64,000 nt of DNA from Lineus longissimus (lineage: Eukaryota; Nemertea; Pilidiophora; Heteronemertea; Lineidae): assembly GCF_910592395.1 (NCBI RefSeq), contig NC_088325.1, forward strand, positions 2,137,501 to 2,201,500, given 5' to 3'. Position numbers and translations under genes: made by a program. Below, piece after piece: positions 3,101-60,082 of the stretch (the stretch's first letter is position 1; each line of letters begins with the position of its first letter). The notes beneath the pieces are model-generated. The model was not told the origin of the DNA. It worked only from the letters and a program-made list of their open reading frames with translations, and did not search any database.

Positions 3101-6100
3101 ACAGGTGTTGCTGTGGTGGAGGTGTTAGGTAGGTTGCGGAGGAGTGTGCATGATTGCTGAATGTCAGAGTCTGAATATACTAGTCAGATGGAAATAGGTT
3201 CACAGCTTCTCTGGTGTGTCTCATGACAAAGAGTTGTACAAAGTGTGGACAGTGTTGCAAGCCCCAGAGCTTTGTGGTCAGGGTGGTGTCCTTTGGCCAG
3301 TATTCCATTCAATTTCTCATGAGGGAGCAGGGTCAGAGCCCCAGAGCTTTGTGATCACGTGGTGTCCTTTGACCAGTATTCCTCTCATTTTCTCATCAGG
3401 GAGCAGGATCAGAGCCCCAGAGCTTTGTGATCACGTGGTGTCCTTTGGCCGGTATACCTCATAAGGGAAAAGGATCAGAGCCCCAGAGCTTTGTGATCAC
3501 GTGGTGACCTTTGGCTAGTATTCCTCATAAGGGAGAAGGATCAGAACCCCAAAGGTTTTTGATCTCGTGGTGTCCTTTTGCCAGTATTCCTCATAAGGGA
3601 GCAGGATTAGAGCCCTAGAGCTTTGTGATCACGTGGTGTCCTTTGGCCAGTATTCCTCGTAAGGGAGCAGGATCAGAACCCGAGAGCTTTGTCACAGTGG
3701 TGTCCTTTGGCCGGTATACCTCTCCATAGTAATATAAAGAGAAATCTATGAGATCTAGAAGTGCTTCTGATACTTTTAAAATCATGACAACATTTTTCAA
3801 ATTTCTCTCCACAGAAATGCCAACCATCGACACGCCCCCTAGTGACCAAACAGTTACTGAGGGCGACACTGTTGTGTTTAACTGCCTAGCGACGGGGAAG
3901 CCAAAGGTTAAGACAAGTTGGTTGTACAACGGGCAGCCCGTGTTCAGGGATAGCGCCGTCTCGATAACAGGTAAGAGCTTGTCGATTGCGGAACTTGGTT
4001 GTAGTTTCTCAAGATCATTCCTAGTCTGTCTCTTGCCTTAAAGCGAATTTCGCACAAGCCATACAATGCCCTTAAGGTGCCTCAGTGGGTATCAAAGCTA
4101 CTGCATTTTCAACTCATATCCGAGTTTCTGAATGTAACCCTATTGTAGGCCCTCTGTCCACATGTCCATCAGGCCGAGTCTAGTTAACGGATCTGCGCCA
4201 CACTTTTAAACATGAAGTGAGAAGGTTCATTTTCACCGCCTAGAAAAAGTAGGCTGAATGGCTGGTTGTGTGAAATTCCCTTTAACGTGAATTTTGCACT
4301 GTCAGTGTTTGAGCCAACTTTTACATTTTCTTCGCCAACATAAACCCCCCCCTTCTTAATTCCTGTTCAAAACTCTGGCGTAGATCAGTTAGCTAGATTC
4401 AGCCTGCTGATCATGTGGACAAGACGGTTCTTTTCAGAAACTCGTGGATGGGAATTCCACAGTAATGACTCGATGCATCAGTTGTTTTGCTACCGACTGA
4501 GGCGTGGGAATGGAAGGACATTGGGTGACATGAATAAAGACTAGCAAATGCTTTTACTTCAATTTTGTACAGAGAGGCCAAGTGTAAATGTACATGGAGT
4601 TTTAGATAAAAGCATTTACTACTCTTTATTCATATCACCCATTGTATCACTCCTGCGAAATTCACTTTAACCAGCACTGTAGTTAAACAATCAAATAGTT
4701 TCCAATCCGTAGTTAGTCATTTAGAAAAGCAGTACCTGGTCCTGTCTCATAAACAGCTCATTAGTCATAATCATAATGACAGACAACTCCTTCCCTCTTT
4801 GGTTCCGCCATGTTATGTGTCAGAAAACCACAAGTAGAGAGACCTCTATTGGTGTATATCGATAGACTGGTCATTTGTGGCGTTTTTGCTTGTGACCTTG
4901 TGACGCACCACACACAGAATGAACCCTTGTTTGGCTTACTGGATGTATGTTTTGGTTGTACCAGGGAGACTATGGAACAATGCCACAAGTCTACAAGGGA
5001 AGAGTCCAATCGCAGCCTAATGATAACAAATACATTTTGTTGATTGATTAATTGACTGACTGATTGATTGATGAAGATTTTTCCCTTTCCTCTCTAACAT
5101 TCATTAACCATGTTCCCCTGTACAGTGGAACCTCCCTTAGCGGACACCTCTCTATTAAGGACAACCTCTCTATAAAGGACACCAGTTGTGGTCCCAAATT
5201 GGTTGTTTCCATTCAATTTGACCTCTCTTATCAGGATACCTCTCCAATAAGGACAGCACTTGTCAGTCCTGAAGGTGTCCTTAATAGAGAGGTTCTACTG
5301 TACTTATTTCTAACCCATTTCTTACGTGGTTATTTCCCTCACAGAACTTGGTCCAAGCAATGGTAAGAGTCGGTGTGGCTTGCGATGGTTGTGGGATGGC
5401 TTATGTACAAATATTACTCATTTTTTGTTGCCCAGTCAGATGTTGGTTTGCCTTAAGTCTGACAATGTCAACCTTTACTCTTACATTTGCTTTGTGACTC
5501 TGATGCGAGTGTGTTGTGGCTCAAGATGACTGTTTGGAAGTCCTTTTTTGTTACGCATGGCAACGGTATCTGTTAAGCATTCCAATTTAGCTCATTCCAA
5601 TTGTATTGCTTTTGAGAGCTCATTCTAATTGTATTGCTTTTGAGAGCTCATTCCAGTTGTATTGCTTTCAAGAGCTCATTCCAGTTGTATTGCTTTGAAG
5701 AGCTCATTCAAATTGTATTGCTTTTGAGAGCTCATTCCAGTTGTATTGCTTTCAAGAGCTCACTCCAATTGTATTGCTTTCAAGAGCTCACTCCAGTTGT
5801 ATTGCTTTTGAGAGCTCATTCCAATTGTATTGCTTTTGAGAGCTCATTCCAATTGTATTGCTTTTGAGAGCTCATTCCAATTGTATTGCTTTTGGTGGCT
5901 CATTTCAATTGTATTGCTTTTGAGAGCCCATTCCAATTGTATTGCTTTTGGGAGCTCATTTCAATTGTATTGCTTTCAAGAGATCATTCCAAATAAATTG
6001 CTTTCGGACATTTTTTCAATTGTATTGCTTTTGGGAGCTCATTCCAGTTGTATTGCTTTTGAGAGCTCATTCCAATTATATTGCTTTTGGGAGCTCATTC

Positions 6101-9100: not shown

Positions 9101-12100
9101 CTCAGCAGTCTGGAGACTTGGACATTTGTTCGTTTATGATGGTCTCCTAATCTCTGAAAACTCTGAAAAGTTGTAGATCTGAAAACTTTCTGAAAACTTG
9201 TAGATGATGGTACTTTATCTCTGAAAGTGTCAACAGATGTGCTGCTCTTCGGCAGAATCTCAAAATATTCACCACAACTGACTATAAAGGCCATGTGTCA
9301 TGGCATTTAAACTCTATAATTGAATTTCTTAGAATTTCCAGAAACTGTCTTATAGAGTAGAACCTCTCTTTTAAGGACACCTTGGGGACTGAGTAGTGCT
9401 ATCCTTAATTGAGAGGTGTCCTGATTATAGAGATAACTTTTGATGGAAATGACCAATTTCGGACCAAATACAGTGTCCTTAATAGAGAGAGTGTCCTTAA
9501 TAGAGAGGATGTCCTTAATAGAGAGAGTGTCCTTAATAGAGAGGGTGTCCTCAATAGAGAGGGTGTCCTTAATAGAGAGGGTGTCCTTAATAGAGAGGGT
9601 GTCCTTAATAGAGAGGGTGTCCTCAATAGAGAGGTGTCCTTTAAGAGAGGTTCCACTATATTTACCTTCAAAATAACTTCAAATTTCAATTTTTCTATTT
9701 GCAGTACTGGTGCCGCCCTCTAAACCGAAAGTTACAAAGCTCTCCGACAATTCTGTCATGCTCAAGTGGTCAGTGTCGGATAACGAGGGATTACGCATCA
9801 GGTTTTTCCGCGTCCAATATCGGGAACTTTCGAACAGCAAGAAACGCGGCAGCTGGGAAACGATCGAAGATGACATATCTGCCGTCACGCGGCAATATGA
9901 AGTCGCCGGTCTGAAACCCGGCGCGACTTATAAATTCCGGATTGCAGCGGTGTATTCGAATAATGATAATAAGTTGGGGCCGAGTTCGGGCCGGTTTAAA
10001 TTGAGTGTTGAACCGACGCGGCGTCAGCATCCTCCCGTCGCTGGTCCGGTGATCGTGGAAGCTAAGAGTATGTCGCCATCGGATGTAGCTATAAGATGGA
10101 AGGTAAGGAATCGGCTGGGTTCTTCTTCTTCTTCAGCGTTCGCTCTGCACTTGGAGGGGTCATACTCCAGGGAGTATTCCTCCTCCATGGCGGTATGAGT
10201 GTTTTTACGTGCCACTGCGGTTAGGGTCCAATTTGGTTTATTGGCTGAGTGACTCTGTCTTCCGCCAGAGGTAGAGTCCATACAAGCTACTCATACTTCC
10301 CACTTGGTGGGGTCTTAGCATGCCACTATGGGTAGGCACCAGTTGGGTTTATCGGTCTGGTGACTCTGTCTTCAGCCAGAGGTAGAGTCCACGCAAGCTA
10401 CTCACGTTTCTCACTTGGTGGGGTCTTTGCGTGCCACTAGGGGTAGGCACCAGTTGGGTTTATTGGCTGAGTGACTCTGTCTTCGACCAGAGGTAGAGTC
10501 TATGCAAGCTACTCTTGTTTCTCACTTGGTGGGATCTTCTCTGACGAGAGGTAGAATCCACGCAAGCTACTCTTGTTTCTCACTTGGTAGGTTCTTCTCT
10601 GACCAGAGGTAGAGTCCACGCAAGCTACTCTTGTTTCTCACTTGGTGGGATCTTCTCTGACCAGAGGTAGAGTCCACACAAGCTACTCTTGTTTCTCACT
10701 TGGTGGGATCTTCTCTGACCAGAGGTAGAGTCCACGCAAGCTACTCTTGTTTCTCACTTGGTGGGATCTTCTCTGACCAGAGGTAGAGTCCACGCAAGCT
10801 ACTCTTGTTTCTCACTTGGTGGGATCTTCTCTGACCAGAGGTAGAGTCCACGCAAGCTACTCATGTTTCTCACTTGGTGGGGTCTTTCGCTTGCTCTGGC
10901 TTGGACACTTAATACAAGGAACCTCGGTTTTAAGTCTCATTCGAAGGAATGTAAAAGGCCAGGAATTTGATTTCCTGTGTAACATTACTATTTGTTAAAG
11001 TTAAAAGGCTTGTTAAAGTGATTTGTTAGCACACTATAACAGTTAAGAGACAAGAGGTCATCAAAGTAAAAAACACTTTAACGAAATTTGATATTTTGCT
11101 GATTTCAGTATCTGCCACTCGGGACGATAGCCGTGGAGGGTTTCTTTATCTTCTACAAGCCGTACGGTTCGCAGGAGGAATTCAAACGACAGGAAGTCTT
11201 CGGCGGGAATCTCGTTAATTACGTCCTTAACCGGTTGAGGCCAGATACTGAGTACGAGATCAAGATGCAGTGTTTCAATTCGGCCGGAGAGAGCGACTTC
11301 AGTAACACTGTCGTAAAGAGAACACTGGGTAAGAATACGGGTCTGCGGTTTCCTCCTACAAAGCACTAAACTATAGATTGTTCAGTAGTACCTCTGTATT
11401 AGAGACACCCTTGGGATTGCGAATTGGTGTCCTTTATAGAGAGGTGTCCTGATTATAGAGGTCAAACTGAATGAAAATGATCTATTTGGGACTGAAATCT
11501 GTGTCCTCAATATGAAAATTTCCCAAAGTATCGTTACTGTTTTTTTTGGTTCGGTTTTTCCACTGATGCTGAGGTTGTAGAATTGATTGTCTAGATCATC
11601 AGGGGCCTACTGAAATGTTTCGGGATAGACCAGGCCTATTGTAAGATCTAGGCTTAAGTGTCAGGTCGGATGAGGTTGGACCATAAACCCAAAATCGTCA
11701 ACTTGGAAAACTTTTAAAGATCAAACTCTTCTATTGACAGCATCATCTGGGAGTTCCGGTGCCTTCCCTGGCGAGACTGACTACTACCCCGGGGTCCCTG
11801 TTGACGAAAATCCCTTCATGAAGAAGCCGAATCGCAAAAATGTCCCGTACGACGCCAACACATTCGACGTTATCAACACATATGATAAAGATGGACAGGA
11901 AAAACCCGAGTTGACCCCGACGCAAACACAGGAAGAGGATCAGTTCGAGAGGAAAATGAATACGCAGTCGAGTTCGATGCTTTTGTATATGGTCCTCGGG
12001 ATCGTACTAGGGGTCATGATGTTGCTGCTCGTCATTTTCATGGTCATGTGCGGTTTGAAACAGCGACAGCAGCGTCGAATGATGGGTACGTTTAGAGCTA

Positions 12101-22830: not shown

Positions 22831-23329
22831 AGGCCTAATGCTTCAGATGGGGCGTATTATCAGTTGCCAAATGCAGAGCTGACTCGGGGGGGGGGGGGGG
22901 GGGCAGTAGCGCCATGTGAAGCTGCTACAACCGTCGTATATCAATCAGCTAATGGACCCAGCAAATGGCATATCCCCTTGGGTATGGGTCCCGCAAGAAT
23001 AAAGCTGGTCAGAAATATGAGTTGCTCACGTAAGCCATACTTCTGATGAATCCCATCAGATGGCGCTGCGAGTGGTGCACCTTTTCGAGGTCTGAACCAA
23101 CAATGGCCAATTATGTTTAAATGACATCACATGGTGTCCCGATGACGCCGCAATGATGCAATGGATTTTGGGAGATGTTATTGGTGTCCCATGATTCATT
23201 GCATCGTTGAGCTTTATAACTCACACAACGTAGTGAGTGTAATGGTTACGTGTGTATATAAAGTGTAAACAAAATTCATATATCCATCATGTCCATCGAA
23301 TCTGAAAAAATTTGTGCAGACCCATGACA

Positions 23330-23640
23330 GTTCCGGTTCCGGTACAGTTTGTTGCATTCCATACGGGCCGCGCTTGCCGATCCTGCTTTCACGACGCACC
23401 GCAACCACAGTTACCATGATTCCCGTTGTTGACGCAATTATTTCATGACGTCATGAGCCATTGACCAATCACGCAAGTAGATTTATTCACACCGGCGCCA
23501 CTGTCTTAAAGTGTATCTAAAAATCGTCTGCTAGAACATACAGGACAACAACGTCGGCGGAGACAGTTGTGACATTTCATTGCAGACGAAGCAAACGTCC
23601 TCTTCTTCTCGATTTACGTACTTTACTTCAAAAAGTCAGT
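23330..23640 (+). promoter_or_regulatory. Candidate PTPMT1 promoter and 5' UTR exon
   Basis: A perfect cAMP-response-type palindrome tgacgtca lies at about 23443-23450, followed by attgaccaatcacg (CCAAT box in a good context) and a GC-richer segment with gacaacaacgtcggcggagac near 23550. It is ~1.8 kb upstream of the acceptor that opens the first coding exon of PTPMT1 at 25346, so it could be the promoter and a non-coding first exon. The splice donor is not clear. Confidence 0.35.
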
Positions 23641-23899: not shown

Positions 23900-24190
23900 G
23901 TCCAATGGGGGGGGGGGGGGGTTTGGGGGGGGGGCCTTCCCCCCAATGAACTGACTAAAACCTGTCACTTTCAGAGAACGGGGGAGGGGGTTTGGGGGAC
24001 TCATCCCCCAATGTACTGGCTATATATGTCAGAAGGACGGGGGTTTGGGGGGCTCCCCCATGTCAAACAGTTGTGTGAGTTCACTAGAGATTGCTCTTTA
24101 CATATTACCATATTCCGAAAAAAATACAATAAGATAGGACAATTTTTCCAGGGGACATTTTCTACTTTTACGCCACCGGCACAAGCTGCC
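23900..24190. repeat. G-tract/C-tract hairpin repeat plus truncated A-element end
   Basis: Three modules of gggtttgggggg followed by a short gap and ccccca (23915, 23985, 24035) form strong hairpins; the same module series recurs at 56985-57150. From about 24138 to 24176 the text ttttccaggggacattttct then acttttac, and a CCGG at 24174-24177, match the right end of insert A found at 30027-30190, so a decayed copy of A abuts it. Confidence 0.6.
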
Positions 24191-30022: not shown

Positions 30023-30026
30023 CCGG

Positions 30027-30190
30027 TGTAGAAGTTTAAAATGTCCTAGGATAAAATGTCCGGAAACAAAGGATTCTATTATGCGCTGAGCTATTGACAG
30101 CCATGGCCTCTATAGAACTATATGCCATAATCTGTTAGAATACAATAGGCCCGGACACTTTTTCCAGGGGGGACACTTTCTACTTTTACA
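30027..30190. mobile_element. Insert A, solitary copy (164 bp)
   Basis: TGTAGAAGTTTAAAATGTCC ... GGGGGGACACTTTCTACTTT TACA, flanked on both sides by CCGG (30023-30026, 30191-30194). The ends form an imperfect TIR (TGTARAAGT). It is the same family as the inserts at 32259 and 36540 but lies outside the tandem array. No coding capacity. Confidence 0.8.
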
Positions 30191-30429
30191 CCGGCCAATC
30201 AAGACAAGAAAAACCCAACTCTACACAATCTAATTTCGTATGCCCGAACGGCACATTATGCATACCCGTTAAAATTACTCTTACACTGGATAATATGTCA
30301 TGCAATACAATTCATGCGAAACAATTTCAATAAAACAAAACTACTCAATTCCTTAACCGTTTTGAATTTCGCCCATTGCGGTAACAGCAGTGCAGGCACC
30401 TCAATATCCTATGGGCCGTGAAAACCGCA

Positions 30430-30720
30430 AAAAATCTGTACATGTTTTTGTTAGCGGTCGTCGCTCGCGCAAACTTGTCTTGCATGTTTTTGTGAAAGAG
30501 GACGTCGGCGAACGCGGTCGTATATCAAAACAGACGTTGGGTGGCGCTCGCGCAAACTTCCCTCACATGTTTTTGTGAAAGAGGACGTCGGCGAACGCGG
30601 TCGTATATCAAAACAGACGTTGGGTGGCGCTCGCGCAAACTTCCCTCACATGTTTTTGTGAAAGAGGACGTCGGCGAACGCGGTCGTATAAAAAAACAGA
30701 CGTTGGGTGGCGCTCGAGAC
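30430..30720 (+). repeat. ~92-bp tandem repeat (gaaagaggacgtcggcgaac)
   Basis: Three full copies and a partial one of a CG-rich unit with gtcgtatatcaaaacagacg and ttgggtggcgctcgcgcaaa. The copies are nearly identical, suggesting recent amplification. Open frames through it are a by-product. Confidence 0.88.
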
Positions 30721-32258
30721 GGGTCATCCTATTTAGCGTTCAGTGGCGACCAGTGGCGTCCAACGCGAAATAATAGGGTGTATATGGTCGACGCCAGGCA
30801 AATTAAATGGTGGAACCGTTACCATTTCAAAACCAATATGAGTTTCCATCTGTTCAGTATAATAATCCCATAAATTTTCCAACCACTGCCAACAACTTGG
30901 CAATGTCCCGAAAGACGCAAAATACATAGTCCACTAAGATAGAACGTTGCTCCGGTTGTCCTTGACACAAAAGGGAGTAGGCTTCTCCAAGAGTCGATAC
31001 TACATAAGTTCCGTGTGTTATTTCTACCGTCGAAGTCGCTAGTGCTGGTGATGGACACTCGGCAGTCCTCACGCAATTCTTTTTCTCCTGTTAGGATCCC
31101 TCTAGGACAAAGTTTCTTCGAACGATCATACATCGGCCCGGTTCGACAGATTGTGGGCCGACTTCCAATGCACGTGCTCGGGAAGAATAGTCCTCCTGTT
31201 TCGGTATGGGAGCATCCAGTAAGTACGTACACACTGAGGGGGGGGGGGGTCTATGAAATCCGTACACTATGCGTACAGGGGGGGAGGGGGGGGGTTAATG
31301 GTCTTGCGTACGTACGCAACCCAAGAACCATTTTTTGAACAAATAAAAAATAAATAAATATTATCATAATAATCTTCTCCTCTTTCTTATTCTTATATGG
31401 ATAACCATACTTGTTCTTCACAAGATGTGTGAACTCATACGCTTCTGGGTTCGGATGTTACCCGACTACAATGTTTGAGCAATTTCCAGCGCCGTTTAAT
31501 TTCCCGGTAATGCGTGTCGCCGTCGGAGAAAAATTGCGCAGTCGACTTGCCAATACGACGCCAATCCGATTGTGGCGCCACAATGTAGCAAAATCAGGTA
31601 CTATGTCTGTTCGTCTGCTAGGGAATTCAAGGTTCTCTAGGCGTACGCTCGTACAGGGGGGGGGGGGGGGGGTATGAGGCAATGCCTGCAAGGTGCATAC
31701 AGGGGGGAAGGGGGGGTCTCAAAATTGGCATAGAATGAGTTAGTAGGTTACCTCCTGATGAGACAGTGAAAGAATGAGCTCACTTCCTCCTGGTGAATCA
31801 GTGTAAGAATGAGCTCACTTCCTCCTGATGAGACAGTGTAAGAATGAGCTCACTTCCTCCTGATGAGACAGTGTAAGAATGAGCTCACTTCCTCCTGGTG
31901 AATCAGTGTAAGAATGTGCTCAGTTCCTCCTGGTGAATTAGTGTAATAATATGCCGAGTTCTTCCTGACCAATTAGTGTTATAATGTGGTCAGTTCCTCT
32001 AGGTGAATCAGTGCTCGAATTAGTGTAATAATGAGCTAAGTTTCTCCTGTGAGTCAGTGTAATAATGTGCTTATTTCCCCCTGGTGAATCAGTTTAATGA
32101 TGTGCTGTCTTCCTCTTGTTAAATGAAAACTGGTGAATGGAGAGTGCACAGTTCCTCCCGGCGAATGAAAGAAGCCGTTCCTCAAGGAAGAATTGAAAAC
32201 GTCTGAGCCCTCCCTCATGCTTGTACTGTGACCTTCATCCTCACGAAATGCATTCCGG

Positions 32259-32420
32259 TGTAAAAGTAAAAGTGTCCCCCCTGGAAAAAGTGTCCGGCCC
32301 TATTGTATTCTGCAATATGGTTCTATAGAGACCCTGACAGTCAATAGCTCAGAGATTGAAGCGCATAATAGAATCCTTTGTTCCCGGACATTTTATCCTA
32401 GGACATTTTAAACTTCTACA
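32259..32420 (+). mobile_element. Insert A in array unit 1 (162 bp)
   Basis: TGTAAAAGTAAAAGTGTCCC ... AACTTCTACA between CCGG at 32255-32258 and CCGG at 32421-32424. Its whole length aligns with the reverse complement of the insert at 36540-36684 in the next unit, with the flanks outside CCGG keeping the same orientation. The empty site is at 38648-38651 in unit 3. Confidence 0.85.
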
Positions 32421-32497
32421 CCGGTTCGCCGATTCCACCAGTTACCGCTCGCTGTCATACAATCGCGCGATATCCTTGGCAAATAGAGGCTGCTTGA

Positions 32498-34562
32498 TAT
32501 GAGGCGCCATGTGGGACTTTAATTGTTTCCCTAAATTATTTCAAATAATGTCATTGTTTCAAACAAAAAATGAACAAATCAGAAATTATTTCATCCAATA
32601 AAGTACGTTTTAGAAACAATTATTTTGTATTCAAACCGGCGTTTTTATTTTTTAAACCATCGGTTTATTTTCAAACCAGGAAAACACACACAAATTGTTT
32701 CCATACCATAGTAGTTCTGCAAATCCATGGTTTGGAAACCATACCAAGTTGTCCTTTTTATTATTTCAAACCATGTGGATTCGCAAAGTCATTATTTCAA
32801 TGGTTTACAAACCACGAATATGTGCGTAAAACATTCTTTGCATCCCATGAAAAATTGTATACGCTACAAACTTGTGGTATGCATATAATTGTTTTACGCA
32901 GCCACGGGCGCCATGTGGGAATTAAATTATTTGACGAAATCATTTGAAATAAGCAAATTATATCGAAATAAATGAGTGAACGAAGTCAAGATTATTTCCA
33001 AACCATAAATTTGCTTATTCCAATTGTATTCAAACCATTTACTGTTCCTATCGATATTGTTTCAAACAATGAATTTGCTCTCTTTTGATTATATTCATCC
33101 AATCAAACAACGTAACTTTATTGTTTTCAAATAATACATTTTCTGAATATCCGTGGTTTCAAATAATCAAACTGTCTCGAAATGATGGTTTGTTAAATAA
33201 TCAAAATTAAAAAAGTCATGGTTTCTCAAACCAGGAAATTGTCCATTGCATTGGATGATAAACAATCACGCACAAAATCATTATTTCCAAACTATCACTT
33301 TAACAAACTAATTGTTTCAAATCATGAAAGTATGCACGAAATTATTTGTATACAATCTAATTGTACTCATCTAATGTTGATTATTTGCATCCCAGCAACG
33401 TTTTTTCAAACCATGAAAACGCGAACTCTAATTGTTTCCATCCAATCACTTCCAAAAGTCATTGTTTCCATCCAAGCAAAACTACGTTCATGGTATGCGC
33501 ACATGGTTTGCGCAGTAGACGGGTTTGAGTTTGAACTTAATAAAACCCGTCTATTGCGCAAACCATGTGCGCATACCATGAACGTAGTTTTGCTTGGATG
33601 GAAACAATGACTTTTGGAAGTGATTGGATGGAAACAATTAGAGTTCGCGTTTTCATGGTTTGAAAAAACATGCAAATAATCAACATTAGATGAGTACAAT
33701 TAGATTGTATACAAATAATTTCGTGCATACTTTTATGATTTGAAACAATTAGTTTGTTAAAGTGATAGTTTGGAAATAATGATTTTGTGCATGATTGTTT
33801 ATCATCCAATGCAATGGACAATTTCCTGGTTTGAGAAACCATGACTTTTTTAATTTTGATTATTTAACAAACCATCATTTCGAGACAGTTTGATTATTTG
33901 AAACCACGGATATTCAGAAAATGTATTATTTGAAAACAATAAAGTTACGTTGTTTGATTGGATGAATATAATCAAAAGAGAGCAAATTCATTGTTTGAAA
34001 CAATATCGATAGGAACAGTAAATGGTTTGAATACAATTGGAATAAGCAAATTTACGGTTTGGAAATAATCTTGACTTCGTTCACTCATTTATTTCGATAT
34101 AATTTGCTTATTTCAAATGATTTCGTCAAATAATTTAATTCCCACATGGCGCCCGTGGCTGCGTAAAACAATTATATGCATACCACAAGTTTGTAGCGTA
34201 TACAATTTTTCATGGGATGCAAAGAATGTTTTACGCACATATTCGTGGTTTGTAAACCATTGAAATAATGACTTTGCGAATCCACATGGTTTGAAATAAT
34301 AAAAAGGACAACTTGGTATGGTTTCCAAACCATGGATTTGCAGAACTACTATGGTATGGAAACAATTTGTGTGTGTTTTCCTGGTTTGAAAATAAACCGA
34401 TGGTTTAAAAAATAAAAATGCTGCTTTGAATACAAAATAATTGTTTCTAAAACGTACTTTATTGGATGAAATAATTTCTGATTTGTTCATTTTTTGTTTG
34501 AAACAATGACATTATTTGAAATAATTTAGGGAAACAATTAAAGTCTCACATGGCGCCTCATA
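32498..34562. mobile_element. 2,065-bp palindromic (foldback) transposon with 6-bp TSD
   Basis: Arms 32498-33526 (1,029 bases) and 33543-34562 (1,020 bases) are reverse complements, differing by one 9-base indel near 33393 and few substitutions, around a 16-base spacer. Ends are TATGAGGCGCCATGTG. GCTTGA at 32492-32497 is repeated at 34563-34568; the sister unit has the intact empty site ggctgcttgacgatctg near 36750. Each arm is packed with short motifs such as gaaacaat, caaaccat and attatttc. No transposase is encoded; the long open frames in the two arms mirror each other and are low complexity. Confidence 0.93.
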
Positions 34563-34652
34563 GCTTGACGATCTGAATAAAAGACAGTCTATAAACCGTG
34601 TCTGTTTTTGAGAATAATCGCACGGCCTATATCAATACTGGCCCGATGCCGG

Positions 34653-34824
34653 TGTAATGTTTTTGAGTGTTTCTGTTTTTGAGTGTTTCCCCTCATTGTT
34701 TGGGAACGCTCAAAAATAGATTGACAAGTTTTTCTGTGTATCCCCCCTATTGAAAAGTCATGGTCTCTCTAGCTGCCTATTGTTTGGAAACACTGACACA
34801 TGGGGAACAACCACAGATGTTACA
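34653..34824 (+). mobile_element. Insert B in array unit 2 (172 bp)
   Basis: TGTAATGTTTTTGAGTG ... CCACAGATGTTACA between CCGG 34649-34652 and 34825-34828. It is unrelated in sequence to insert A apart from the TGTA/TACA ends and CCGG flanks. It equals the reverse complement of the insert at 36845-37032, apart from one 16-base internal repeat unit and a single substitution. A diverged relative lies near 43724-43840. Confidence 0.85.
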
Positions 34825-35453
34825 CCGGCACCACCAAATAAACCTTCAGCACACACACATGATAGCCAGATAAGGACCATTATGTTTGCGAACGCATCTC
34901 CTATCATAACCATATTTCTGTCTAACAATGTGTGCATGCCCTACTGATTGTAAAGTACATGACATTAATTTATAAGCATTGTACCCATGGCGCAGGCAGG
35001 TGAGACAAGACCACAATTGATTTTCCAAGCCATTTCCAGTTATTTCAAATGCCCGCCATCAAATACTGCGTGGGGTTGTGAAACTGAAATTCGGATATGA
35101 TATACGGGTTAGTCTTGGGAGTAACTGGTGCGCTTTAAACTGGTGATTGACCACGGAAAATTTTTTTTAAATTGACAAGTTTGACACAAGTGGACATTTT
35201 TACCCATTTCGGCCATTTTCACTCCAAATTTGAACCCCCTCCCCCCTATGGCCAGGTTGTCAAAATTCAAAATTAATTTTTTTCCCAAACAATTTATTTA
35301 TATCTGTAGACTTGCCACAGCATATATTTTTTCAATACCTCTCCAAATATGTACTTGAGAGTTAAAAACATGCACTCGTCTAATTGATAGGCCTGGACCC
35401 TCCAACCTATGAATATTCATCAGTGGTCTTGTCTCCGGTTCAAATGGGCTATA

Positions 35454-35985
35454 AGGAGCATCCATTAAGTACGTACGCACTGAGGGGGGTCTATGAAATC
35501 CGTACACTATGCGTACAGGGGGAGGGGGGGGGTTAATGGTCTTGCGTACGTACGCAACCCAATAACCATTTTTTGAACAAATAAAAAATAAATAAATATT
35601 ATCATAATAATCTTCTCCTCTTTCTTATTCTTATATGGATAACCATACTTGTTCTTCACAAGATGTGTGAACTCATACGCTTCTGGGTTCGGATGTTACC
35701 CGACTACAATGTTTGAGCAATTTCCAGCGCCGTTTAATTTCCCGTAATGCGTGTCGCCTTCGGAGAAAAATTGCGCATACGACGCCAATCCGATTGTGGC
35801 GCCACAATGTAGCAAAATCAGGTACCATGTCTGTTCGTATGCAAGGGAATTCAAGGTTCTAAGGCGTACGCTCGTACAGGGGGAGGGGGGGGGGGTATGA
35901 GGCAATGCGTACAAGGTGCATACAGGGGGGAGGGGGGGTCTCAAAATTGGTATTTTCGTGCGTACGTACTTGATGGACGCTCCCT
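35454..35985. mobile_element. Element C in unit 2: 532-bp MITE with ~30-bp TIR
   Basis: AGGAGCATCCATTAAGTACG at the left and the reverse complement of AGGGAGCGTCCATCAAGTAC at the right; TA at both flanks (35452-35453, 35986-35987). The inside has paired G-rich tracts (cgtacagggggagg) next to each end. Same element at 37667-38198; a copy lacking its right end opens the array at 31206. Confidence 0.75.
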
Positions 35986-36539
35986 TAGTAGTGTGAGAAT
36001 GAGTTAGTAAGTTACCTCTCGGTGAGACAGTGAAAGAATGAGCTCACTTCCTCCTGGTGAATCAGTGCAAGAATGAGCTCACTTCCTCCTGGTGAATCAG
36101 TGCAAGAATGAGCTCACTTCCTCCTGGTGAATCAGTGAAAGAATGAGCTCACTTCCTCCTGGTGAATCAGTGCAAGAATGAGCTCACTTCCTCCTGGTGA
36201 ATTAGTGTAATAATATGCCGAGTTCTTCCTGACCAATTAGTGTTATAATGTGGTCAGTTCCTCTAGGTGAATCAGTGCGGGAATCAGTGTAATAATGTGC
36301 TCGAATTAGTGTAATAATGAGCTAAGTTTCTCCTGTGAGTCAGTGTATGTGCTTTTTTCCCCCTGGTGAATCAGTTTAATGATGTGCTGTCTTCCTCTTG
36401 TTAAATGAAACTGGTGAATGGAGAGTGCACAGTTCCTCCCGGCGAATGAAAGAAGCCGTTCCTCAAGGAAGAATTGAAAACGTCTGAGCCCTCCCTCATG
36501 CTTGTACTGTGACCTTAATCCTCACGAAATGCATGCCGG

Positions 36540-36684
36540 TGTAGAAGTTTAAAATGTCCTAGGATAAAATGTCCGGGAACAAAGGATTCTATTATGCGCT
36601 GAGCTATTGACGGTATGCCATAATCTGTCAGAATACAATAGGCCCGGACACTTTTTCTAGGGGGGGACACTTTTTACTTTTACA
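36540..36684 (-). mobile_element. Insert A in array unit 2, inverted orientation (145 bp)
   Basis: TGTAGAAGTTTAAAATGTCC ... TTTTTACTTTTACA between CCGG 36536-36539 and 36685-36688, at the same site of the unit as the insert at 32259 but reversed. About 20 interior bases are missing relative to unit 1. Confidence 0.85.
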
Positions 36685-36844
36685 CCGGTTCGCCAATTCC
36701 ACCAGTTACCGCTCGCTGTCATACAATCGCGCGATATCTTGGCAAATAGAGGCTGCTTGACGATCTGAATAAAAGACAGTCTATAAACCGTGTCTGTTTT
36801 TGAGAATAATCGCACGGCCTATATCAATACTGGCCCGATACCGG

Positions 36845-37032
36845 TGTAACATCTGTGGTTGTTCCCCATGTGTCAGTGTTTCCAAACAATAGGCAGCTAG
36901 AGAGACCACGACTTTTCAATAGGGGGGATACACAGAAAAACTTGTCAATCTATTTTTGAGCGTTCCCAAACAATGAGGGGAAACACTCAAAAACAGAAAC
37001 ACTCAAAAACAGAAACACTCAAAAACATTACA
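36845..37032 (-). mobile_element. Insert B in array unit 3, inverted orientation (188 bp)
   Basis: TGTAACATCTGTGG ... ACTCAAAAACATTACA between CCGG 36841-36844 and 37033-37036. Flanks (gatacc left, ggcaccaccaaat right) match unit 2 in direct orientation while the insert is reversed. In the last unit the site reads gatgcccaccacc (near 38797), i.e. no insert and a 2-base shortening. Confidence 0.85.
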
Positions 37033-37666
37033 CCGGCACCACCAAATAAACCTTCAGCACACACACATGATAGCCAGATGATAAGGACCATTATGTTTGC
37101 GAACGCATCTCGTATCATAACCATATTTCTGTCTAACAATGTGTACATGCCCTACTGATTGTAAAGTACATGACATTAATTTATAAGCATTGTACCCATG
37201 GCACAGGCAGGTGAGACAAGACCACAATTGATTTTCCAAGCCATTTCCAGTTATTTCAAATGCCCGCCATCAAATACTGCGTGGGGTTGTGAAACTGAAA
37301 TTCGGATATGATATACGGGTTAGTCTTGGGAGTAACTGGTGCGCTTTAAACTGGTGATTGACCACGGACATTTTTTTTTAAATTGACAAGTTTGACACAA
37401 GTGGACATTTTTACCCATTTCGGCCATTTTCACTCCAAATTTGAACCCCCCCCCCCCCCTATGGCCAGGTTGTCAAAATTCAAAATTAATTTTTTTCCCA
37501 AACAATTTATTTATATCTGTAGACTTGCCACAGCAAATATTTTTTCAATACCTCTCCAAATATGTACTTGAGAGTTAAAAACATGCACTCGTCTAATTGA
37601 TAGGCCTGGACCCTCCAACCTATGAATATTCATCAGTGGTCTTGTCTCCGGTTCAAATGGGCTATA

Positions 37667-38198
37667 AGGAGCATCCATTAAGTACGTACGCACTGAGGGG
37701 GGTCTATGAAATCCGTACACTATGCGTACAGGGGGAGGGGGGGGGTTAATTGTCTTGCGTACGTACGCAACCCAATAACCACTTTTTGAACAAATAAAAA
37801 ATAAATAAATATTATCATAATAATCTTCTCCTCTTTCTTATTCTTATATGGATAACCATACTTGTTCTTCACAAGATGTGTGAACTCATACGCTTCTGGG
37901 TTCGGATGTTACCCGACTACAATGTTTAGCAATTTCCAGCGCCGTTTAATTTCCCGTAATGCGTGTCGCCGTCGGAGAAAAATTGCGCATACGACGCCAA
38001 TCCGATTGTGGCGCCACAATGTAGCAAAATCATGTACCATGTCTGTTCGTCTGCTAGGGAATTCAAGGTTCTAAGGCGTACGCTCGTACAGGGGGAGGGG
38101 GGGGGGGGTATGAGGCAATGCGTACAAGGTGCATACAGGGGGGAGGGGGGGTCTCAAAATTGGCATTTTCGTGCGTACGTACTTGATGGACGCTCCCT
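37667..38198. mobile_element. Element C in unit 3
   Basis: Near-identical to the copy at 35454-35985, with the same TA flanks and TIR, so it was part of the unit before tandem duplication. Confidence 0.75.
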
Positions 38199-38974
38199 TA
38201 GTAGTGTGAGAATGAGTTAGTAAGTTACCTCTCGGTGAGACAGTGAAAGAATGAGCTCACTTCCTCCTGGTGAATCAGTGCAAGAATGAGCTCACTTCCT
38301 CCTGGTGAATTAGTGTAATAATATGCCGAGTTCTTCCTGACCAATTAGTGTTATAATGTGGTCAGTTCCTCTAGGTGAATCAGTGCGGGAATCAGTGTAA
38401 TAATGTGCTCGAATTAGTGTAATAATGAGCTAAGTTTCTCCTGTGAGTCAGTGTAATATGTGCTTATTTCCCCCTGGTGAATCAGTTTAATGATGTGCTG
38501 TCTTCCTCTTGTTAAATGAAAACTGGTGAATGGAGAGTGCACAGTTCCTCCCGGCGAATGAAAGAAGCCGTTCCTCAAGGAAGAATTGAAAACGTCTGAG
38601 CCCTCCCTCATGCTTGTACTGTGACCTGAATCCTCAAGAAATGCATGCCGGTTCGCCGATTCCACCAGTTACCGCTCGCTGTCATACAATCGCGCGATAT
38701 TTTGGCAAATGGCTGCTTGACGATCTGAATAAAAGACAGTCTATAAACCGTGTCTGTTTTTGAGAATAATCGCACGGCCTATATCAATACAGACCCGATG
38801 CCCACCACCAAATAAACCTTCAGCACACACACATGATAGCCAGATGATAAGGACTATTATGTTTGCGAACGCATCTCGTATCATAACCATATAACAATGT
38901 GTGCAATCGTGTGTAAGCCCTATTGATTGTCAAGTACATGGCATTAATTTATAAGCATTGTACCTTTTTTACCT

Positions 38975-43614: not shown

Positions 43615-46600
43615 ATGAAGTCATTTCACTTGTTAATCTTTCTGTTTGTGCCGTTTAAATTTGGTAAGTCTTTCTTGAATGCATTCTAACTGATTTCCTC
43701 ATCACCAAGACCCTGTGGTATGAACCTCGAGTGTTTCCTTTTTCCCCCCTTGTTTGAGAACGCTAAGAGACCAATTGACACCGTTTTCTCGGTTTCCCCC
43801 TTCGAAAAGCCATGGTCTCTTTAGCCGTCTATTGTATCCTTATGTGTATTCGTCAATTATACAACTATAATATTTGTCTGATCATGAAGTCAGCAATGGT
43901 CTTTTGTTTCAGTGGATTCAGGTCCAGAAAGAACGTTCAGTCTGTGCGCCCGCCAGAGAATCTCCGTACCGAAGGGAGTCGGTGTCCTAATCGTCGACCC
44001 AGTGAGAAACGACGAACTGTATTCCACGGATGTTTGGGTATACCAAGCATGCACCTATTGTTTTTGTGAAGTCCACTTTCAAACGACAACACAAGTCCGA
44101 ATAAGAAACATCCTCAACTCGTACTTAACGTATGACAAGATTAAGTTCATATGGGACAAAGCGATCTATTCCTTCGGACTGCAGTTGCACAGAGATGAGA
44201 CAAGGACTGCGAGGAATCGCTTCAAAGTGGAGTTCAAATCTGAAAATGCGGGTTACGGGTTCTTCAAGTTCAGATTAATAGGTAGGCTTCTTCAGAGAAA
44301 TGACAATCTCAGGAAAATCACTTCACCAGTCCTCATAATGTCGAATTCTGGCGCTTGCCATCGATCGATTGTTCTCTCTATGATCTGTTCCCTATGAGCA
44401 TATTGTGAGTGGTCGACTTCTGCCAAGTGCGACCAAAACGCAGGGAGTCCTGCGCTGCCCCGAGAGCAGATGTTTTTTTATTCATCTTCATTGTGTCCTC
44501 AAATGTCTCTGCATGTTCATAAACAATATGCCAACAACACACCAGATACAAAGGTCACAACCAACTGTTTCGGAGTTATCTTTCTGTAGACGTCCGTGAC
44601 TGACAAGACTGAAATATGTTACGAGAGTAGGCAATGATGATGCCTTCATTTACCTTACTCGGGCAAGAAAAGTCCCCGCCGTCATTTCTTCAACGTCTCT
44701 CCTTTCCCCTTAGCTTTAGACCGGGATTTGGAACTGAGTTGCAATATAGAAAGAACAACAATGTCCACCTCATCGACAACTACCATCACCACACCAACAC
44801 CAACAACTCCGGACAAAGGCACAACTAGCGTTGCATCGACGACGGAGGAAGGTATGTCACTTGGGAACCTTTCAACCGCAAAAGGGACGGTGGTGTCTTC
44901 TATATCTACCGAATCCATTGCAGTTGGTGAGGGGGAGAAGGCTAAGATCTCACCAAGCCACAGAAACCAGCAGTTGCCACGATTAGGTGGGCAATCCGAA
45001 AACCAATAAATGAAGTAAATGTTTTTTTGACTGAATAAAGCAGGCGACAAAGTCACAAAAGGTGTGATCGTGTTGCGTTAAAGATGTTGGAACTTCAGTT
45101 AAACTAAACTGTATCGGTTTCAATGAAACTATTTCTTCGATACGAAAAGGTCACATTCGCCATGAATTAAGTAGGCTGGTATTCGGCAGCGATCTTTCGA
45201 GAATCGTACAAAGAATAATTTCAACCTCATGTCTGATGTAGGCACTGAAGTGACAAAAATAAAGAAAGCTGTTCTTCTTGTTCAACAAGTCAAGCCTAAC
45301 CCTGCTGTAATAACCGCCCATGCAAAAGCTCTTAATACCGGTAATGCTAAGTACCCCATTAGAAGAGTTGCTGTCAGAAAGTGACACCAATCACAGAGAT
45401 TATTGACGTCAATGCCAAACACATGTAGTTCATGACTCCAACTGAGAAGTTAAAAAACCAAATGTACACATCCATCTCATAAATGTAGATCACAACAGTT
45501 GCTTCATTTTTAGGTCCACCCTCTGCACCTAGCATTCTCGAAGTAGTCAACTCATCTGCCGTAGCAGTGACCCTCAAATGGATCTCAGAATTCAATGGTG
45601 GATCGGAGCAGAGATTTTACATCCAATACAAGGAGTCTGCAGAAAACTGGGATGTTGCCCCGGAGGTTCCCGAAGGAGGAATAACTGATCCAGGTCTCAA
45701 GAAAGCCGTGTATCATAAGGTTATGGGTCTTGAGTCCAATGTCTCGTATATGTTTCGGGTGCACAGCAAGAACCTCATATCCCACCCAGGGACTCACACG
45801 AGTAACTTTAGCAACATATCATCAGGAAAAACACCAGGTTTGCGAATGTTTTATAGACTTTTATAGTCTCTCGATTTTTTTCAGCTGCTTAGTTCTCACC
45901 TGGATGAGCTGCATAATTTACCTCTTCGGGAATACCTCTAATGTACGGCATGGGTTTATCAATACTCTCAGCAGTACTTATAACATTTGAACCCGTCTTT
46001 AAATAACTAGGGCGAGGAGCTGAGATGCACCCCCACTGCCTTGGCGTCTAATGAGATAGGGAAATGATTGTTTTTGATTTTGCAACTTCGCCAAGTGATC
46101 GGACGTGCCGTCAACAGCGGCTGACCCCACAAGTAGGCAATTTCATTTCTCCGTAAATAGAGTTTCATCACCGGGGGTGCTGATTCAAAAAAGGCGTGCT
46201 CAATATAAAAAAGTTCTGACCATGCCTTACCCTCATTATATGCATGGCCTTTGTTCAAACCATTTCTTCTAAAATATTTGTTTATTCAATTTGCAGAGAA
46301 ACCCGAACTGTCCTTCATATGTGTGAATCGGATAAGTAAAAGAGTAACCGTGGACTGGGAACGAGTGACCGGAAAATATACAGGGCTAAAGATCAGATAC
46401 TGCCTGACCGGCACGGACGACTGCATGACTCACACCGTGCCTAAGCCAGAGGGAACCCATGCTACCTTTTTTGTTGATCCCGATAAGACATATTATTATT
46501 ATGTACTGGTCGAAGATGGTGATGATGTTGTATACAGGAGCAGGGTCTTCAATGATGAAGTTGATGACAAGATAAACATAGGTGAGTCGAGTAAGCTTTA

Positions 46601-49645: not shown

Positions 49646-50365
49646 ATGGAGCCCCCCCCCCCCCCCGATAACAATGACTATGTTTTCTGTGTGCAAGCCC
49701 GTAGCCCTACCAAGCCTAACATTTGCACTATAACCATTGAAAAGAAAGACAGATACACCAAGATTCCGATGATGGTCGACTCTGGAGCCTCTGTGAACGT
49801 CGTTGATGCTCAAACCTTTAAAGTCATCCGCCGTGTGAAGCCAAATCTACAACTCCAGCCTCCCGACACCAGCATATACACTTATGGTAGTAAAGACCCA
49901 ATGCCTTTGAAAGGGATATTCAAGACGACAGCCAGGTTCAAAGCTGAATCAAAGTTTTGCAATTTCTACGTAACAGAAGGTAACAGTGGAAATTTGATCG
50001 GGCGATCGACTGCCACAGCTCTGGGCATACTCCATATTGTGAACGAAGTCAAAAGTCACCCAAAGTTACCAGAAGGTCTCAGCGAGTTTGGCGACATGTT
50101 TGAAGGAATTGGTAAAATAAAGAACAGATCAGTAAAGCTTCATATCGATGAGTCTGTCAAGCCAAAACAGCAACCCCACAGGCGCATAGCGTTTCATATC
50201 AGGAAGGATATAGAGAAAGAAGTAGAAAGACTAGACGCTCAGGACATACTTGAGGACGTCGAGGGTCCGACACCCTGGATAAGCCCGATTGTAGTAGTCC
50301 CGAAGAAATCAGGAGGAATAAGAATGCGTGGACATGAGGGAAGCAAATTAAGCCATACAGCGTGA
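49646..50365 (+). pseudogene. Ty3/gypsy protease and start of RT (broken)
   Basis: Contains the retropepsin motif VDSGASVNVVD near residue 45 and the RT entry region (TPWISPIVVVPKKSGG). The frame is lost around 50325 by a small indel and terminates at 50365, while the RT frame also carries a stop at 50349-50351. The run of 14 C at 49651-49664 encodes a Pro stretch and is itself indel-prone. Confidence 0.8.
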
Positions 50366-50372
50366 AAGACAC

Positions 50373-51650
50373 TTGATGCCCACATTAGATGACTTGGTGA
50401 ATGATTTGAATGGTGCCACGGTGTTCAGCACACTAGATATGAGGAGTGCTTATCATCAATTGGAACTGGCCCATGAGAGCAGATACATCACAACTTTTTC
50501 CACACACCTTGGTTTGAAACGATACAAGAGACTGTTCTTTGGCATAAATGCTGCATCAGAAATTTTCCAGAATGCCATCGCTGAAATTTTGCATGGTCTA
50601 CCCGGCTGCAAGAATATATCAGATGACATCATCATATTTGGCAAGAATCGCAAGGAGCATGACAAGAACCTGAAAGCAGTACTGAAAGGACTTAAAGAAC
50701 ACGGTGTCGTCCTGAATTTACCGAAGTGTCACTTCTACAAGTCCCAAGTCAAGTTATATGGTCATATTTTTAACTCTGAAGGAATCTCACCTGATCCCAA
50801 GAATATACAGACGATCGTAGACGCCCCAGGCCCGCAAGACGCCAGTGGAGTCAAGTCCCTCTTAGGAATGGTGCAGTACCTCTCACGATTTATACCAGAC
50901 TATGCTCATATCACAGCCCCACTTCGTGAACTGACAAGACAAGACACCAAGTGGGAATGGACTGAAGAACACGACAAAGCCCTGATCGACTTGAAGGAAG
51001 CCCTTACAGGAGCCAAGGTCATGTCGTACTAAAATCCAGATCTTGATGTTGAAGTAGCCCTAGACGCCAGCCCCAAAGGATTAGGAGCAATGTTAACACA
51101 GCGAGGAAAAGTCATCAGTTATGGTAGCAAAATCCTCACCGATGTAGAGACGAGATACTCACAGACAGAACGTGAGATGCTAGCTGTAGTATGGTCCCTG
51201 GAGCATTTCCATCTATTTTTATATGGTTCCAGGTCATTCAAGATCTTCACAGACCATAAGCCTTTGATTGGTATTTTCAACAGCCGTAAGCCTGCCTCAG
51301 CCAGAATCGAGCGATGGAGATTACGACTCATGCCGTATAATTGTACCCTAGAGTATCGCCCTGGTAAAGACGACAAAAATGCAGCCGATTTTATGAGCCG
51401 ACACCCTGTAGCCAGCCCAGATGATCCAGACCACACCGATGATTATTTGTACATCAACTACCTGTGTACAAATGCTATCCCGAAGGCGATGACATTTGAT
51501 GAAGTTCAAGCCTGTACCAATGCTGATCCTGTACTGCAGAAAGTGAAGAAATCCATCGAAACTGGTAATTGGCCGAAACGTGATGACACCATGAGACCTT
51601 TCTACCTCCAGAGAGATCAATATTTGCTGTCCATAATGGTGCCATCATGA
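50373..51650 (+). pseudogene. Ty3/gypsy RT and RNase H (stop-interrupted)
   Basis: RT motifs: FSTLDMRSAYHQ and the catalytic ISDDIIIF, then LPKCHFY and a GYVQFLSRF-like LGMVQYLSRF. An in-frame TAA at 51030-51032 separates RT from RNase H, which continues in the same frame (ALDASPKGLGAML, TDHKPL, ending near 51650). The ISDD form instead of YVDD is seen in several invertebrate gypsy lineages. Confidence 0.85.
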
Positions 51651-52882
51651 GATGTTCCCGCCTAGTGATTCCGAAGACACTCCAGAAGAGAGCAGTTGAG
51701 TTGGCACACGTTGGTCACCAAGGTATAGTAAAGACGAAGAGCCTCTTACGTGAGAAGATATGGTTTCCTGGTATTGACGCCCTGGTCGAAGAAGAAGTCC
51801 GACAATGTTTACCCTGTCAAGCCGCCAGCAGCCGTGGAGCTGAAAAACCGGAGCTGCTGAAGATGACGCCACTCCCGAAGTCAGCATGGCAAGAAACGTC
51901 CATCGATTTCTTTGGCCCACTACCCGTGCCGACAGCTGATTACTTGATGGTACTCATTGATGATTACAGCCGGTTTCCCGAAATTGAGATTATAGCGTCT
52001 ACTGCAGCTAAGACCGTCATACCCAAACTTGATGCCATATTTTCAAGACAAGGTATACCAGAAGTCCTGAAGAGCGATAACGGTCCACCCTTCAATGGAA
52101 AAGACTTTACAAGATTTTCCTGCTACCTTGGTTTCAAGCACCGAAAGATCACTCCACTTTACCATCAAGCTAATGGTGAAGCCGAGAAGTTTATGCAGTC
52201 CATGGCTAAAACTGTCAGAGTTGCACACATCGCTGGTCAGAATTGGAAGCAAGAACTGCAGAAGTTTCTTCGCCAATATCGTGCCACTCCACATTCAACG
52301 ACTGGTGTATCGCCATTTGAAGCCCTTACTGGTAGAAAGATGAATACACAGCTGCCGCAGATCACAGCCTCTAGTCCAGCAGCCCGTAGTCCCGTGCCAG
52401 ATGCAGTCATCAGAAACAGAGACGATATCCAGAAAGCGAAGATGAAAGCGTATGCTGATAAGGGACGCCACGTTAAGGAAAGCAGTCTTTCAGAGGGTGA
52501 CGCAGTCTTGGTACGTCAACGAAGACAGAACAAGCTCTCCACTCCATTCAGCCCTGATCCCCTCCGTGTAACTGCCAGAGATGGTAATATGGTTACCGCA
52601 GAGCGTCCAAGTGGACAGAGAGTGACCAGGAATGTAACACATTTTAAGAGCATTCCACACAGACACATCATTCGTGAAGACGAGAAGGAAGAGCTGATTG
52701 ACGTCCCGGAGAACGAGGATACCGAAATGCTGGTCCCGCCACTTCCTGATGTTCCAACGCCAGATGTCGAGACTACCACTTCTAACGAGATCCCATATGC
52801 GACTCCAGTAGGCCTACGTCAATCAACCAGAGGACATTCACTGCCTGTTCGTTTCAAGGACTATGTTATGGTGTGTCGCTAA
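51647..52882 (+). pseudogene. Ty3/gypsy integrase
   Basis: 411 codons open. Zinc-binding HHCC (AHVGHQG ... CLPCQ), catalytic D,D,E core (SIDFFGPL, LKSDNGPPF, QANGEAEKF) and a Pro/acidic C-terminus. It is in a different frame from RNase H; a one-base shift near 51635-51650 breaks the polyprotein. The domain itself looks intact, so the element died recently or the breaks are few. Confidence 0.85.
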
Positions 52883-58436: not shown

Positions 58437-60082
58437 TCTATATCATAATACTATAAGGCGGCTCGCTAAAGTGCCATTTGGGGGTCGTGTTTCGTCTCGA
58501 AATTTTGCACGTTTGCAGGTGATATGTTATCCTGATGCAACGTCATGTTTATTTTCGGAAATTTACTTCAGCGGAGCAGTAATGAGGGATTTTTAATCGG
58601 ACACGGTCAATTCTCCTTATCACTCACGGAAGCCAAGCCATTGCTGTTCAGTTATGCAGAGGATTAATGAATCACCTGCACTCCCTGTGGGGTGACTAAC
58701 ACTACCTGTTGAACGGCTGGCTGTAGGGGGATGATTGGAACAGCCTGTACACGTGTTGACCTGCTGAACCAAGGTTAATGTTATTTTCAAGGCCAGGTCT
58801 ATTTGGCAAGCCGCTCGCCGAACAGGCATCTTTTTTTGTCCTGTTTGGAGAGCCGCTTGCCAAACAGCACTAAAAAGCCACCCTGTTCGGCCAGCCGGGC
58901 TTGCCAAACAGGGCAAAAATACTACCCTCTTTGGCGAGCCGGAAAGGTTACAACATGTTGGCCAATCAGAGAGCAGTGACGTCATTATTCGAATTTATAT
59001 GCGCATATTTAACAATGGCCGACTTCCCGCTCTCGATTCAATTTCTGTTACTAAACTCGGGTTTTGGTCAATAATCCATGGAGAAGCATGTACATGTACA
59101 TGACTGTATGGATTTACAAAAAAAAGTCATAAACGTGATTTAACTGATAAGCATGTTAAATGCATTAGTGTGCATTTCTAAAGGCGTTTCACTGTAACTA
59201 CAGTGTTGCTGACCGTGTTGCCACGAATGATAATGAGCTCCTGGATGGTTGAATATGCATGAGTTCGGCTCTCCATCTAGGGCAGAAAAAAGGCGCTGTT
59301 TGGTGAGCCGGGCTTGCCAAATAGTCACTTCCTATTTTCAATCCACGATTGTAGGTCACCTGATCTTCGAGATTTCGCGGGAAAGAAATTGTAAACAAAC
59401 GCATGTGTGCAGTTCAAATGTAAACAAAACTGTATTTTGATACTTTTGGTTGCTGGACTTGGGTTTTCCCGCAGTAAGGAGCTGGGGTCAAATTGATGGT
59501 CTATCGTATATTGGTACTGTATTAGCCAGAGCTAGCCTTTGATTATGAAGGGATTTTCAAATTAAGGTTACAATGGTATGTTTATGTGCTCACCACAGCT
59601 TTCAAAACTTGATGTATCTGAAGAGGCACTCTGAACTTGGCATGGCCTTATCAAGGAGCTGCTCACGGTGCTGAACTTCTAGCTTGCCTGTCGACTAAGT
59701 GCCTTGCCCGAGATCATGCTACATGTAGGAGGAGCACGCATTTTAAAGTTTTAGTAGTGATAGTGCAATTGGTCCGAGCCATTTGGAGGCCGACATGTGA
59801 AGGCCTATCTGGGTTCTCCTTCATCTCCGTATAAAAAGGGGCATATTGCTGACTAAGGAACGAGGTATATTCACATTGCCTCATCATCTCATTCGGACCA
59901 ATTGATTTACTTTTATATGCACGCATACAGCACGCCACAGGGTCCGAGTCTGTGGACAAATGGTTGGTTTAATTTGTCTCTTCGATATTGCTCCTTTGAT
60001 ATTGCATTATATTTTCATTGCAATTCAATCTATTCAAGGTATAGCCCATTTGAACCTGCCTGCGCCACGGGTACAATGCTAG
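58437..60082 (+). mobile_element. Non-autonomous Helitron, copy 2, carrying a nested element
   Basis: Same ends as copy 1 (TCTATATCATAATAC ... ACAATGCTAG), between A (58436) and T (60083). Apart from the nested insert at 58791-59332 and a ~60-base segment near 59560 absent from copy 1, the two align throughout. Confidence 0.85.
58791..59332. mobile_element. 542-bp Mutator-like MITE nested in the Helitron, 9-bp TSD
   Basis: TATTTTCAA at 58782-58790 and 59333-59341; Helitron copy 1 shows the single empty site (ttattttcaatccacg near 28161). The ends are inverted: ctatttggcaagccg-ctcgccgaacag versus ctatttggcaagcccggctcaccaaacag in reverse. Further ggcaagcc and agccggctt motifs lie inside. Different family from the element at 55256 but with the same TSD length. 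Confidence 0.83.

Follow-up and report, generated by a model that had tools for sequence, protein, structure and literature searches.

Short Ginger1-like transposons at shared CCGG sites of sister repeats in Lineus longissimus: probable separate arrivals rather than inversion in place

Two unrelated inserts, here called A and B, occupy corresponding points of neighbouring ~2-kb repeat units in the nemertean Lineus longissimus (contig NC_088325.1, positions 2,137,501 to 2,201,500; this whole stretch of 64,000 nucleotides is the window, and coordinates are counted from its first letter), and at both points the insert of one unit faces the opposite way to that of the next. This locus raises the question of whether each insert was turned round where it stood or whether different copies arrived separately at the same base pair. 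An earlier note on this DNA offered two explanations, site-specific inversion and strict CCGG targeting with insertion in either direction, and the evidence presented here supports the latter. A and B are very probably non-autonomous miniature inverted-repeat transposable elements that work in the manner of Ginger1, a group of transposons from a paper reportedly by Bao, Kapitonov and Jurka in 2010, and that landed independently at favoured CCGG sites of sister units.

The array of sister units (the tail of unit 0, units 1 and 2, and the start of unit 3) spans 31190-38892 on the plus strand, with approximate ends. Units 1 and 2 hold one A and one B insert apiece, and unit 3 has none. In unit 1, element A1 runs from TGTA to TACA at 32259-32420 on the plus strand (32255-32424 when the CCGG duplications, 32255-32258 and 32421-32424, are counted), and element B1 lies at 34653-34824 on the minus strand (34649-34828). 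In unit 2, A2 lies at 36540-36684 on the minus strand (36536-36688) and B2 at 36845-37032 on the plus strand (36841-37036), each likewise with CCGG on either side. These insert coordinates, the CCGG borders and the TGTA...TACA ends had all been given correctly in the earlier note, as had the dissimilarity of the interiors of A and B, between which blastn found no match at E<=1. A third copy of the A family, A3 (30023-30194, minus strand, CCGG on either side), had been missed; it lies outside the 2-kb units and represents a third A variant. The sequence CCGGTGTA occurs five times in the window, in 5/5 cases paired with a TACACCGG, and the five pairs are elements A1, A2, A3, B1 and B2.

Site-specific inversion supposes that each insert is turned round, after duplication of the unit, by a recombinase that works on its CCGGTGTA/TACACCGG ends. 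The arrangement invites this idea, as the same point and flanks with opposite orientation are seen twice in the window and once between dispersed repeats, and B1 and B2 are identical at 171/172 aligned bases. The sister inserts do share one CCGG and do face opposite ways; the A inserts, described earlier as reverse complements, are not, and differ by 7 substitutions in 142 aligned bases and by 6 indels (23 nt). Had one insert been inherited by both units, its divergence should about equal that of the unit flanks, which differ by 18 substitutions in 1473 aligned bases (1.2%) and 6 indels; the divergence of A1 from A2 exceeds this (Fisher p 0.004 for substitutions and 0.0002 for indels). A1 and A2 are different variants of separate ancestry, and inversion in place is rejected for A unless one invokes gene conversion as a further step. 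The B inserts differ by the single substitution and by one 16-nt tandem copy, so that they too are not exact reversals. B1 belongs to a 172-nt class with two 16-nt repeats and is identical at 180/180 positions to C20:12489332-12489511, and B2 belongs to a 188-nt class with three such repeats and is identical at 196/196 positions to C10:2118543-2118738. Inversion is disfavoured for B by these separate twins, and the separate ancestry of B1 and B2 is supported, more weakly than that of the A pair, because one slippage and one CpG transition would turn B2 into B1.

The genome as a whole (391,118,348 bases in 30 contigs) was searched with A1, B1 and B2 as separate queries, and A and B are large dispersed transposon families with near-identical copies. 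Candidates at first count numbered at least 1792 for A1, at least 1438 for B1 and at least 1337 for B2; among the 40 candidates scored for each query, which lie on many contigs, identity was 98-100% for A1 (one at 85%), 99-100% for B1 and mostly 95-100% for B2. The earlier note had let its proposal stand or fall with the presence of further CCGG-bounded copies, of which the genome contains many. From the 41 places found with A1 we read 20 A1-type loci outside the window, made up of 7 from one set of 8 loci and 13 from a second set of regions, and A1 differs from these copies by 0 substitutions and one 1-nt indel; they represent 18 distinct insertions, because L048-L050 have one flank in common. 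The best match of A2 elsewhere is 92% among the 42 matches listed, with A1 absent from that list, and direct alignment of A2 with the copy in L003 gives 1 substitution and 22 nt of gaps. For B, the 172-nt and 188-nt classes are the two commonest length classes, comprising 33 and 19 of the 83 distinct A and B sites considered below. Relatives elsewhere are as close as, or closer than, the opposite member of each pair, and the divergence of A1 from A2 together with the near-identical relatives of A1, B1 and B2 indicates that each insert probably arrived separately. The sum of private substitutions in A1, B1 and B2, which leaves out A2 as having no near-identical copy, is 0, compared with about 3.2 expected if these elements were older than the unit duplication (P 0.04); we infer that the insertions came later.

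To compare the orientation of related copies, we joined the two flanks of each of 93 copies and aligned every one with every other. Four groups (2, 3, 7 and 3 copies) have a common host flank, and 15/15 copies keep one orientation within their group, none being flipped. Each member shows 0 substitutions relative to the first of its group, a three-copy B group differing by short indels (187, 189 and 196 nt), and in these groups element and flank were presumably duplicated together. Opposite pairs are three in number, A1/A2, B1/B2 and L021/L043, the last on contigs C2 and C1, where elements of the 188-nt and 172-nt classes sit in two sister copies of one dispersed repeat. An invertible element would present one sequence in both orientations at one locus; all three opposite pairs instead join different variants. 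Orientation thus changes together with the element variant, which fits the prediction of separate landings, and the unoccupied sites described below require no inversion system. Site-specific inversion is accordingly very unlikely. The orientations are those of the assembly, and tandem repeats with long palindromes are difficult to assemble, so that units might have been mis-joined and inserts placed the wrong way round; such an artefact is exceedingly improbable, given that the inserts differ in sequence as well as direction and that opposite orientation also occurs between dispersed repeats on two contigs. As a separate observation from the flank comparison, a larger repeat on C2, C11, C10, C6 and C4 holds one B at one point (L039, L061, L064, L077, L080, L081 and L084), where B seems to have travelled as a passenger of some other sequence, either mobile or duplicated.

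CCGG is the duplicated target of both families. Sites of A and B were told apart by their exact 24-nt flanks, which gave 83, including A1, A2, B1 and B2, with L037 (host site of L025 and L029) and L084 (host site of L039) still counted separately, a flaw shared by the 64-site set used below. The target duplications read CCGG/CCGG at 76 of the 83 sites and CCGT/CCGT at one, and have one altered side at six; as each query had CCGG at its ends, the first of these shares is biased upward. Among A sites 20/21 are CCGG/CCGG and the remaining one is CCGG/CCGT; among B sites the figure is 56/62, with one CCGT/CCGT and five altered on one side. Elements also land in each other's CCGG, forming chains, which among the 83 sites involve six loci with 8 copies. 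A search for unoccupied paralogues, free of the query bias, used 86 joined flanks and yielded 32 spanning matches. The host repeats of L043, L067, L068, L076 and L086, all distinct from the 2-kb unit, have unoccupied paralogues with a single CCGG at the insertion point, apart from one L086 paralogue that reads CCGA; the L074 paralogue matches at 73% only. Three unoccupied paralogues lie within the window, at 23279-23402, 58835-58958 and 59249-59335. Of the two empty sites attributed earlier to unit 3, site A (38648-38651) indeed has a single CCGG, and site B (38797-38804) is reduced to CC with the GG missing (GATGCC--CACC).

A preference extending beyond CCGG accounts for the repeated use of the same two points. 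It was modelled from 64 sites against 396 background CCGG, window copies being excluded; of 88 copies elsewhere, 9 were dropped for duplicate flanks, 8 for lying in chains and 7 for borders other than CCGG/CCGG. Counted outward from CCGG, the preferences are a purine at -3 (p 9e-9), G and not T at -1 (p 1.5e-6), T at -2 (p 1e-4) and A at -4 (p 0.002), where sites were read on both strands and the p-values take the two halves as independent. With the inserts removed each unit has four CCGG, of which sites A and B score best: site B stands at the 99th-100th percentile of the background, and in units 2 and 3 site A reaches the 98th, compared with the 14th and 38th for the other two. The occupied sites being the two best of the unit, their recurrent use is explained, and a palindromic target makes either orientation possible; two good sites per unit, each filled twice in either orientation, are unremarkable, and coincidence without a hot spot is an unnecessary assumption when the two occupied CCGG score best of four. 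Both the copy families and the target preference are established observations. The mechanism we propose is that A and B are short cut-and-paste DNA transposons on which a Ginger1-kind transposase, of the integrase type, would act: it would cut CCGG with a 4-nt stagger, favouring a longer palindrome of about A-R-T-G-CCGG-C-A-Y-T, join the element by its TGTA...TACA termini, and leave CCGG on either side. The 2-kb unit would have been duplicated first, after which different family members would have landed independently on the two CCGG that are the strongest targets in each unit, their opposite orientations being due to chance.

A further possibility is excision with local re-insertion, in which both units inherit one element per site and the transposase later excises it and, at the same CCGG, either restores it in reverse or substitutes another copy facing the other way. 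The palindromic target permits such a reversal, the chains re-use one CCGG in a way that makes a head-to-head pair minus one member conceivable, and the damaged site B of unit 3 could be an excision scar. However, no excision was observed, the A elements are different variants and would need replacement rather than re-insertion, and fresh insertion at a favoured site accounts for the data in fewer steps; we regard re-insertion as unlikely. A related reading, likewise quite unlikely, is that the transposase excises B, and perhaps also A, and re-inserts or replaces it where it stood, so that the occupant and orientation of a favoured palindromic CCGG change over time while the flanks remain intact.

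Several results weigh against independent landing of Ginger1-kind elements. B has no long terminal inverted repeat, and B1/B2 taken alone could be one flipped element with one change of repeat copy and one C-to-T at a CpG. The CCGG share carries the query bias given above; the L036 and L066 paralogues have a changed CCGG and that of L030 an ambiguous gap, so that no intact CCGG is seen there; and site B of unit 3, lacking GG, is no clean unoccupied site. In its present state, site A of unit 1 stands only at the 76th percentile, with T for G beside CCGG, and the case for a hot spot is weaker there. Finally, a genome search with a single A right-end pattern, having a non-C base before CCGGACA (control, 0 matches), found no transposase-coding partner with the ends of A; since ordinary copies were excluded by that one base, the pattern would overlook any partner that also has C at the position or whose ends have diverged. 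The pattern gave 13 matches, namely A3 and 12 other places that mostly carry the same interior variant as A3; all 12 (12/12) have the interior of the short element before the right end, and at two of them (L096 and L097) the left end is absent from the 244 bases fetched. Within the window, 50352-52879 contains fragments of a Gypsy-type long terminal repeat retrotransposon with reverse transcriptase, RNase H and integrase domains in successive frames; this integrase was not taken as a partner of A and B because it adjoins reverse transcriptase.

Other features of the window and of the loci read are as follows. Unit 1 alone contains, between sites A and B, an unrelated foldback element at 32498-34562 (2,065 nt, with ends TATGAGGCGCC and with arms, 893 and 127 nt long, that are 99% complementary) with a 6-nt duplication, GCTTGA, at 32492-32497 and 34563-34568; the corresponding point is uninterrupted in units 2 and 3. 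Partial matches to A at 24107-24174 (77%) and to B at 43741-43835 (78%) are possibly old copies. An 83-nt repeat is present in three head-to-tail copies at 30462-30716. At 2681-3157 and 9677-10195, frames that resemble exons contain immunoglobulin and fibronectin type III domains, as befits an animal genome. Outside the window, a third CCGG-bounded family with TGTAAAAGAAATGCAAGTCC-type ends is represented by L046:327-517 (191 nt including both CCGG), with similar ends in L005, L018, L028 and L070.

These results imply that a transposon found at the same site in two repeats or two genomes need not be inherited. Where the target is narrow and palindromic, elements that land independently at one base pair can mislead phylogenies based on insertions and can pass for inversions. 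The locus also provides a target rule that can be measured, CCGG inside a longer palindrome, for Ginger1-like mini-elements that are abundant and apparently recent, and the families of near-identical copies are a starting point for tracing the coding partner.

Among known systems, piggyBac resembles A and B in having one fixed palindromic tetranucleotide target that permits either orientation, and differs in that the target is TTAA (PMC7351741) and the termini are CC..GG (PMC10045372). IS481EU elements share TGT...ACA termini and, in some families, 4-nt duplications, but are reported from parabasalid protists and often have duplications of 15-16 nt, with no CCGG rule in the available part of the account (PMC10045372). 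Ginger2/TDD has TGTNR ends, 4-5 nt duplications and an integrase-type enzyme, but Ginger2 prefers the AT-rich target RTATAY rather than CCGG (PMC2836005). The earlier note knew of no named family with the behaviour seen here, yet Ginger1 is described as having CCGG-specific duplications (CCGG 75%, CCGT/ACGG 24%), TGTNR ends and inverted repeats of 40-270 bp, in lancelet, hydra, sea hare and aphid, with a few non-autonomous copies in lancelet (PMC2836005). Its transposase is described there as Gypsy-integrase-like with YPYY, H2C2, DDE and GPY/F motifs, usually plus OTU or Ulp1 (PMC2836005). The A and B mini-families were not found described in literature on Ginger transposons with CCGG duplications, Repbase lying outside that search. 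The copies of A and B seen here differ in being of high number, non-coding and 145-236 nt long, and no transposase was seen. B has TGTAA at both ends with no further terminal inverted repeat, its best inverted match being the 9-nt internal AGTGTTTCC, and a 16-nt tandem repeat, CACTCAAAAACAGAAA, of 1 to 6 counted units among copies L009-L045; it is like Ginger1 in its CCGG/CCGT duplication and TGTNR termini, but lacks the inverted repeat of 40-270 nt (PMC2836005), and is therefore said to work like Ginger1 without being filed as a member. A has the CCGG (CCGT) duplication, TGTNR termini (TGTAA and TGTAG) and an imperfect terminal inverted repeat of about 40 nt (41-43 columns with 30-31 identities), which is degenerate, lies at the lower limit of the Ginger1 range (PMC2836005) and agrees only marginally; A is probably a non-autonomous Ginger1. 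We infer that the mobilising enzyme is Ginger1, and most likely the behaviour is ordinary for transposons of this type, whose repeated landing at a single point is seen here with unusual clarity.

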